64,000 nt of DNA from a bacterium SCSIO 12741. GTDB taxonomy: Bacteria > Bacteroidota > Bacteroidia > Flavobacteriales_G > Salibacteraceae. The stretch is from the NCBI GenBank assembly GCA_024398055.1, contig CP073749.1, positions 3,782,594 to 3,846,593 of the forward strand, given 5' to 3'. Of this stretch, positions 19,624-21,643 are shown in pieces. Made by a program: the position numbers and the translations under genes. Position 1 is the first letter of the stretch; each line of letters starts with the position of its first letter. The notes beneath the pieces were generated by a model, which was given only the letters and a program-made list of their open reading frames with translations, was not told where the DNA came from and ran no database searches.

Positions 19624-19941
19624 ATGGCATTAGAATTTACCGATTCCAATTTTGAAGAGTTGGCCTTGAAAAGCGACAAGCCCGTAATCGTAGATTTTTG
19701 GGCAGAATGGTGTGGCCCTTGTAAAATGGTTGGTCCTATCGTGGAGCAATTGGCAGGGGAGTACGAAGGAAAGGCTGTTATTGGAAAACTAAATGTGGAC
19801 AACAACCCAGGTACCGCTGCTAAATATGGTATCCGTTCCATTCCTACTATTCTGTTTTTGAAAAACGGAGAAATTGTTGACCGTCAGGTTGGCGCCGTAC
19901 CTAAAAGCGCACTTGAATCCAAACTTACTGCACAGCTGTAA
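19624..19941 (+). CDS. trxA: Thioredoxin
   Basis: A 105-residue cytosolic thioredoxin of standard length. The active site is WCGPC (Cys30 and Cys33), preceded by VIVDFWAE and followed by the cis-proline loop (IRSIPTILFLKNG). It reduces disulfides in target proteins and is itself reduced by thioredoxin reductase. It is a single-gene unit ended by a clear terminator. Confidence 0.96.
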   Translation: MALEFTDSNFEELALKSDKPVIVDFWAEWCGPCKMVGPIVEQLAGEYEGKAVIGKLNVDNNPGTAAKYGIRSIPTILFLKNGEIVDRQVGAVPKSALESKLTAQL

Positions 19942-19970: not shown

Positions 19971-20004
19971 AACTCCCGGTCATTTTTGGCTTGGGAGTTT
20001 TTTT
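19971..20004 (+). terminator. Rho-independent terminator of trxA
   Basis: Arms AACTCCC and GGGAGTT with a loop of about 15 nt, followed by a run of T, 30 bp after the trxA stop. Confidence 0.8.
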
Positions 20005-20053
20005 ATGGGTTTTGGATTGGATAGTTTTTGGATTTAGTCCTAGGTATGTCGTA

Positions 20054-20600
20054 TAGTTTCGTCGTAGATTGAATCTACGACGAGGTATTGATTGATGTTT
20101 AGATTCCGTCGAGCGCAATTATTATGTTCGAATCTGTTTTGGATCGCAGAATTCTTCCTTTGATAGAATAGTTTCGTCGTAGATTGAATCTACGACGAGG
20201 TATTGATTGATGTTTAGATTTCGTCGAGCGCAATTATAATGTTCGAATCTGTTTTGGATCACAGAATTCTTCCTTTGATAGAATAGTTTCGTCGTAGATT
20301 GAATCTACGACGAGGTATTGATTAAAGTTTAGATTCCGTCGAGCGCAATTATAATGTTCGAATCTGTTTCGGATCACAGAATTCTTCCTTTGATAGAATA
20401 GTTTCGGCGTAGATTGAATCTACGACGAGGTATTGATTGATGTTTAGATTCCGTCGAGCGCAATTATAATTTTCGAATCTGTTTTGGATCGCAGAATTCT
20501 TCCTTTTGATAGAATAGTTTCGGCGTAGATTGAATCTACGACGTGATATTTATAAGTGTTTAGATTCCGTTCAGCGTAATTTTAAGGTTCAAATCCCGCT
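20054..20600. repeat. Five-copy tandem repeat, 115-bp unit with a perfect palindrome
   Basis: Units begin at 20054, 20169, 20284, 20399 and 20515. The period is 115 bp three times and then 116 bp. The first four copies are nearly identical and the fifth decays after about 60 bp. Each begins with a 23-nt inverted repeat (arms CGTCGTAGATT and AATCTACGACG around one G; in copies 4 and 5 the left arm starts CGGCG). Each full unit also has a second, looser pair (AGATTC ... GAATCT about 35 nt apart). It fills the gap between convergent trxA and the hydrolase gene. The period is not a multiple of three, and no frame runs through it. The function is unknown. Confidence 0.9.
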
Positions 20601-20628
20601 GACTCCATCGTGCTGATCAGTTTTTAAT

Positions 20629-20779: not shown

Positions 20780-21643
20780 CTAACCAATCCATTGTTTTAT
20801 TTTTTGCTCCATTTCGAAGAGATGCGTTCCATTCGGCATATGCTTGCAATCCTTCAGCAGGTGAACGTCTTTTAGGTTCTGGAACACAACTTTTGCTTGT
20901 TTTAGGACCTTGTCATCCGGGAAGAATACGTCGTCGTCAGCCAAGATCAGGTATACCGGATTGGTGAAATGTTCCACATCCTTCTTTTGCAAAATTTGAG
21001 GTCTTCTCAAATCCATGTGTAGGCCGGTTAATATGGCTTTTTGAAATTCAAACATGTAGGTATCCTCTTCCGGAACAAAGTGCTTAACAAAGGCTCGAAG
21101 ATCTTTGTCCTTTTTCGAGAATTGATACTTCATAAGCGGAATGGAAAGTTTGGTCATGGATGGCCAGAAATTACCATTGGCCAAGCCGCTCGGCACGATA
21201 AATACGCACTTTTCCACTTTAGATGGGCGATGGGTGATAAGCTTCTGCAGAATATAAGCACCGTAGGAAATGCCTATAAAATGAGCACTTGTAACATCCA
21301 ATTGGTCCAATACCTCATCCGCCCAGAGGGCAAAAGACTCGTCTTTAATATTGATGGTGGTATCTGCACTTTTGGTGGCTTGACCTATCGTATCAATCGC
21401 GTAGAATTGATAGTCTTTTTGAAGGCCTTTAATACACTCCAGCGTTAGGGGGGAACCGGCATGAACTCCGTGAAACAGAACCACTTTCTGTCCTTTAGGG
21501 TTTCCTGAGACTATCACCCGAGTTTGCCCGTAAGTGGTGTTGAGGTCCTTTTCCTCCAAGGGAAAATCAAGACTTGCTAATTTTTGATCGTAGAGTTGGA
21601 AAATCTTTTCTCTTGCTTGAGGAGATTTATAAATACTTTTCAT
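20780..21643 (-). CDS. Alpha/beta hydrolase
   Basis: A 287-residue cytosolic hydrolase. The oxyanion segment is VVLFHGVHAG (about 64-73). The nucleophile elbow is FIGISYGAYI with Ser near 147. The acid is probably in LILADDDVFF, and the catalytic His is in LKDCKHMPNGTHLFEME. There is no signal peptide. It is divergent from a TetR-family regulator 52 bp away, so it is probably induced when that repressor is released. The ester or other substrate is not evident. Confidence 0.85.
   Translation of the reverse strand: MKSIYKSPQAREKIFQLYDQKLASLDFPLEEKDLNTTYGQTRVIVSGNPKGQKVVLFHGVHAGSPLTLECIKGLQKDYQFYAIDTIGQATKSADTTINIKDESFALWADEVLDQLDVTSAHFIGISYGAYILQKLITHRPSKVEKCVFIVPSGLANGNFWPSMTKLSIPLMKYQFSKKDKDLRAFVKHFVPEEDTYMFEFQKAILTGLHMDLRRPQILQKKDVEHFTNPVYLILADDDVFFPDDKVLKQAKVVFQNLKDVHLLKDCKHMPNGTHLFEMEQKIKQWIG

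Follow-up and report, generated by a model that had tools for sequence, protein, structure and literature searches.

A BIME-like tandem array in a Bacteroidota genome that probably arose from an orphan REP-like palindrome

REP palindromes and the REP-associated tyrosine transposases (RAYTs), which are domesticated transposases, have been studied mainly in Proteobacteria. Orphan repeats are known, and a cognate RAYT in the same genome is not a strict requirement. TnpA-REP subclass 2.6, which corresponds to Bertels group 5, includes genes of Bacteroidota, a phylum whose repeats have been described no further than as 'atypical secondary structures' (PMC6006769). CGTC-tagged REPs, for which Bacteroidetes are among the reported phyla, occur without a dedicated transposase (PMC3733652), and BIME-2 and related tandem REP clusters have been described in enterobacteria and pseudomonads (PMC3733652, PMC2817692, PMC8266576). 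Here we report the analysis of a tandem array within a 64-kb stretch of Bacteroidota DNA (hereafter referred to as the window). On sequence grounds, the array probably derives from an orphan REP-like palindrome, atypical in the manner of those linked to Bacteroidota RAYTs, that was amplified along with its flanking DNA to give a BIME-like array. It is a modest fresh example of a known bacterial repeat class, and not a new kind of system. Together with the sister copies dispersed in the genome and the occurrence of its core beside RAYTs, the array provides a concrete motif and loci at which RAYT recognition without a GTAG foot can be tested, and the same loci are suited to testing how such repeats turn into tandem arrays.

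Tandem Repeats Finder and a repeat search place the array at positions 20053–20595 of the window, on the plus strand, with a period of 115, 4.7 copies, 93% matches and a score of 923; the next-best tandem array of the window scores 59. The first-pass annotation had described five 115-bp units; the array is real, the fifth unit is truncated and the units start one base earlier than proposed. Units 1 to 3 (20053–20167, 20168–20282 and 20283–20397) are 115 bp each, unit 4 (20398–20513) is 116 bp with one extra T and one stem mismatch (T10G), and unit 5 (20514–20595) ends after 82 bp, is about 83% identical and has two stem mismatches. Units 1 to 4 are 94.8–97.4% identical in pairwise comparison, in agreement with their earlier description as near-identical, and the 82 nt of unit 5 are 82.9–84.1% identical to them. 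No open reading frame of at least 60 amino acids overlaps the array, which had already been described as free of open frames.

Each unit begins with a 36-nt REP-like hairpin (20053–20088, 20168–20203, 20283–20318, 20398–20433 and 20514–20549, all on the plus strand), and no other part of the unit has copies elsewhere in the genome. In unit 1 it is followed by a 79-nt spacer (20089–20167) that contains a weaker AGATTC...GAATCT pair and is specific to the array in a search of the host genome. The palindrome is perfect only in units 1, 2 and 3, where it spans 25 nt with 12-nt arms and a 1-nt centre. The perfect 23-nt inverted repeat formerly ascribed to every unit thus stands for these three; in units 4 and 5, a common T-to-G change replaces CGTCG with CGGCG and breaks one pair, unit 5 has a second stem mismatch, and a perfect 17-nt core is left. 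Units 1, 3 and 4 retain an intact AGATTC/GAATCT pair, which had been assigned to each full unit; in unit 2 the pair is shortened (AGATTT), and in unit 5 it is broken. In a palindrome scan of the window (arms of at least 8 nt, loops of at most 6), only the three perfect palindromes of the array have arms longer than 8 nt, and the array palindromes are therefore not due to chance.

The array is flanked by convergent genes, as the annotation had stated: the thioredoxin gene trxA (19624–19941, plus strand) and an alpha/beta hydrolase gene (20780–21643, minus strand). Judged by its sequence, trxA has its own terminator at about 19972–20006, an inverted repeat and a T-run located ahead of the array. 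The trxA loci of 15 Bacteroidota relatives have no comparable array downstream of the gene, which argues that the array is lineage-specific and not part of trxA regulation. The right edge of the array (20586–20607, GGTTCAAATCCCGCTGACTCCA) resembles a tRNA T-arm with a CCA end. A tRNA or att-site origin of the array was rejected, as ARAGORN called no tRNA within the window and the search for a donor in the genome, plasmids and fetched loci was negative; the tRNA-like edge is probably a chance resemblance or a very old remnant. A phage origin was also discarded, since neither phage records nor viral contigs gave a match.

Searches of the host genome, which is a single contig of 5.10 Mb, separated the unit into two parts. 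A plain sequence search with the full 115-bp unit as the query, as the annotation had proposed, matched the complete unit in the array only, and its first 36 nt also at genome positions ~2495131–2495133 and 2907529. A search with a model that takes the structure of these 36 nt into account added copies at 1329243, 2905986, 334747, 338329 and 3480294, as well as short hairpin relatives at 381661, 3479351 and 3480354. The dispersed 36-nt family comprises about nine copies in addition to the five in the array, and all located copies of the hairpin are intergenic. In neither of the copies recovered by plain search does the match to the unit extend past these 36 nt; the repeated element therefore measures about 36 nt (ATAG, a 12–14-bp stem and GGTAT), and the remaining 79 nt are local DNA that was duplicated along with it.

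Among ten distinct copies, 90.7% of the cells are paired and five stem pairs have changed on both sides, as compared with 1.9 in shuffles, although some dispersed copies were retrieved by the structure-based model and these counts are biased towards structure; the copies at ~2495131 and 2907529 are independent of that model. The covariation score of the ten copies was reached by none of 500 shuffles, and a doubly changed pair is directly visible in the copy at 1329243 (CGCCGTAG/CTACGGCG). These compensatory changes, together with covariation above that of all shuffles, indicate that the base pairing of the hairpin has been kept.

According to the open reading frame lists, 10 of the 11 family locations, the array included, lie 17–149 nt downstream of a stop codon. 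The array and the copies at 1329243 and 381661 are situated between convergent genes, and the copy at 2905986 lies between divergent open reading frames. The same placement has been reported for REPs (PMC3733652). Five singletons (L047, L007, L049, L054 and L058) are oriented alike with respect to the gene ending shortly before them, the mRNA of which would read ATACCTCGTCG...CGAAACTAT and then become U-rich; this uniform orientation may point to a 3′-end role.

The host genome encodes two RAYTs (NF047646, 102 and 96 bits), at 3965479 and 949174. The palindromes that flank them are GGTGCGCGTTTAAACGCGCACC, which has a second, slightly imperfect copy closer to the RAYT gene, and GCGGATTTTAAATCCGC, CTTTCGGATTGCAAATCCGAAAG and CATCTGGATTTGCAATCCAGATG. 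These share the build of the array hairpin (a long stem with a T/A centre) and differ from it in their stems; neither of the two resident RAYTs is flanked by the exact array hairpin. Both lack the WQ motif of subclass 2.6. Upstream of the minus-strand RAYT gene, one stretch (L037:2380–2780, genome ~949680–950080) holds a partial second 5′ end with its upstream palindromes, and its portion at ~2518–2745 repeats ~2250–2480, which has the appearance of a duplication that took place locally, within a REPtron-like locus.

The annotation had also proposed a search of relatives. The full 115-bp unit matched in none of 40 relatives, among which there was no further genome of the host genus, and the exact pattern TTTCGTCGTAG...CTACGACGAGG had no match in the GTDB genome collection. 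The hairpin core CGTAGTTTNNAACTACG, by contrast with a reversed control pattern that was found at a rate near zero, is present in 19 of 395 Bacteroidota genomes of the class. In three of these genomes (G123, G132 and G272), the core lies 73–758 nt from RAYT genes. Seven of the 42 listed core loci have a RAYT no more than 1 kb away, against an expectation of 0.15, and the count falls to six when the pair of G123 hairpins, which sit 557 nt apart, is merged; the corresponding P value of ~7e-11 is nominal, as the RAYT loci of G132 are related copies. Most core loci outside the three genomes are not near a RAYT. G132 C8 carries a tandem array of the core, with three 60-bp units, 89 nt from a RAYT, and a member of the host's family (G013) has two duplicated 183-bp units, each with two such palindromes. 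A locus from another genus of the family (L212) contains CGTCGTAGTTGCAAACTACGACG, with the outer stem CGTCGTAG...CTACGACG as in the array. The RAYTs linked to the core in G123 and G132 carry YIH[QE]NP motifs, and the putative subclass (2.6) of the linked RAYTs is read from this one type of sequence motif (YIH[QNE]NP).

Several further features emerged from these genomes. The 6.9-Mb genome of G013 contains 25 core matches and no detected RAYT, and appears to be a second orphan case, with many core palindromes and no detectable RAYT. At the core loci L068–L093, 9 of the 56 hairpin sides have a GGGG no more than 25 nt away, compared with a background of 3.6%; it is absent from the array, and a conserved tail or guide in other Bacteroidota is possible. 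RAYT genes in two different families (L229 of G007 and L113 of G096) lie near long AACTCTTCCAAAGTT...AACTTTGGAAGAGTT palindromes, which seem to represent another shared RAYT–palindrome type.

These observations suggest a course by which the array may have arisen. The 36-nt hairpin would be non-autonomous, a REP-like palindromic element such as RAYT (Y1 HuH) transposases mark in Bacteroidota, and a single copy of it would first have resided in the intergenic region between trxA and the hydrolase gene. The hairpin and ~79 bp of its flank would then have been duplicated head-to-tail, giving a BIME-like array. We infer that the element was at some point nicked, or moved, by a RAYT; the start of each unit at the 5′ edge of the hairpin would fit cleavage near the foot. 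Unequal crossing-over or replication slippage would subsequently have expanded and homogenised units 1 to 4, and would explain the expansion equally well as a cut near the foot. Since unit 5 is divergent and has the T-to-G change in common with unit 4, it is the probable old edge, and units 1 to 4 probably represent a later expansion. The recent local amplification suggested in the annotation is supported by the near-identity of units 1 to 4, the divergent copy at the old edge and the lack of the unit anywhere else in the genome. Any present effect is probably weak, given the loss of stem pairs in units 4 and 5. By analogy with REPs, the array could act as an mRNA 3′-end hairpin or attenuator for the converging transcripts or as a protein-binding site, and a weak 3′-end or attenuator role would be its likeliest function.

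A rival reading is that the array is a functional 3′ end, bidirectional terminator or mRNA-stabilising cluster kept for the converging genes, its likeness to RAYT palindromes being secondary. The predicted stem can form in RNA from both strands, and the convergent setting, the position of 10 of the 11 family locations just downstream of stop codons and the equal orientation of the five singletons to their upstream genes would all fit it. However, a consensus scan found no intrinsic-terminator-like site in the array, the inverted repeat and T-run of trxA precede it, stem pairs are lost in two units, and no such array is located downstream of trxA in the 15 relatives, so we regard this explanation as unlikely. 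It is more improbable still that the array encodes tandem small RNAs or binds proteins in series, with the 115-bp unit as the functional entity and one RNA or protein per unit. Sigma-70-like matches do recur from unit to unit, but they number 4 against 2.3 on average in shuffles, and the promoter consensus of Bacteroidota differs from that of sigma-70. The regular 115-bp spacing and the combination of a strong and a weaker inverted repeat in each unit would suit such an array, but just 36 of the 115 nt recur elsewhere, the weaker of the two inverted repeats is impaired in units 2 and 5, and no Rfam family was matched at the gathering score, the weaker matches below it looking like chance.

Finally, the array could be an accidental tandem duplication of a chance palindrome with no element behind it, or an artefact of assembly. 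Direct tandem duplication is common and the genome showed only a single array of this type, yet the 36 nt recur at unrelated sites with compensatory changes. Moreover, several substitutions and one indel distinguish the units, and the genome is a single contig; collapsed or miscopied units would not differ in this way, and we give this explanation very little credence. Amplification of a REP-like palindrome thus remains the reading that we prefer. A broader proposal goes well beyond it and is put forward tentatively, as we consider it rather doubtful: that Bacteroidota harbour a distinct superfamily of palindromes that are recognised by a conserved tip, GTAGTT-N2/3-AACTAC, in place of a GTAG foot, are mobilised by Bacteroidota RAYTs and form tandem arrays; orphan arrays would owe their movement to a non-cognate RAYT acting in trans, or would be relics of a RAYT since lost.

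A comparison with the described systems places the array more precisely. The array element resembles canonical GTAG REPs in its size and intergenic location (36 nt with a 12–14-bp stem, as compared with palindromes of 20–40 nt). However, it lacks their unpaired 5′ foot, GTAG or GTGG: GTAG lies inside the stem, which is preceded by ATAG in the array, L007, L054 and L058, and by AAAG, ACAG or TAAC in other copies. Canonical REPs are also present in tens to hundreds of copies, whereas the array hairpin has about nine dispersed copies and the five in the array. It shares the CGTC sequence with CGTC-tagged REPs, in which an unpaired CGTC at one end accompanies a stem of 8–9 bp and a loop of 4–5, whereas in the array hairpin CGTC is paired inside a 12–14-bp stem with a 3-nt loop. 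Like BIME-2 and tandem REP clusters, the array repeats a palindrome of REP size (20–40 nt) together with flanking DNA, and is located downstream of genes, between convergent ones. Unlike BIME-2, it has no unpaired GTAG foot and is the single such array seen in its genome, and whereas a BIME alternates REP and inverted-REP pairs with linkers, often in tandem, each unit of the array has a single, near-symmetric palindrome and all units point the same way. By formal tests, the array element is thus not a canonical GTAG REP, a CGTC REP or part of an alternating BIME. The regular tandem spacing and partly palindromic repeat recall CRISPR, but CRISPR spacers are variable, whereas those of the array are near-identical copies of one sequence in units 1 to 4, and the earlier judgement that the array is not a CRISPR therefore holds.

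The closest resemblance is to the palindromes of Bacteroidota RAYT subclass 2.6, which are likewise perfect, have a short T/A-rich centre and are intergenic, with copies elsewhere in the genome. Those palindromes flank RAYTs, as does the core motif of the array in G123, G132 and G272, whereas no RAYT of the host genome was found with the array hairpin beside it, which limits the assignment; we would group the hairpin with RAYT-linked palindromes of Bacteroidota by its core motif only. The first-pass annotation had considered the array unlike REP or BIME layouts, a view that does not survive the finding that its hairpin belongs to a family of dispersed intergenic palindromes, the core of which flanks RAYTs and in one case forms a similar tandem array. 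The layout of the array is instead of the REP/BIME kind, in a poorly described Bacteroidota form.
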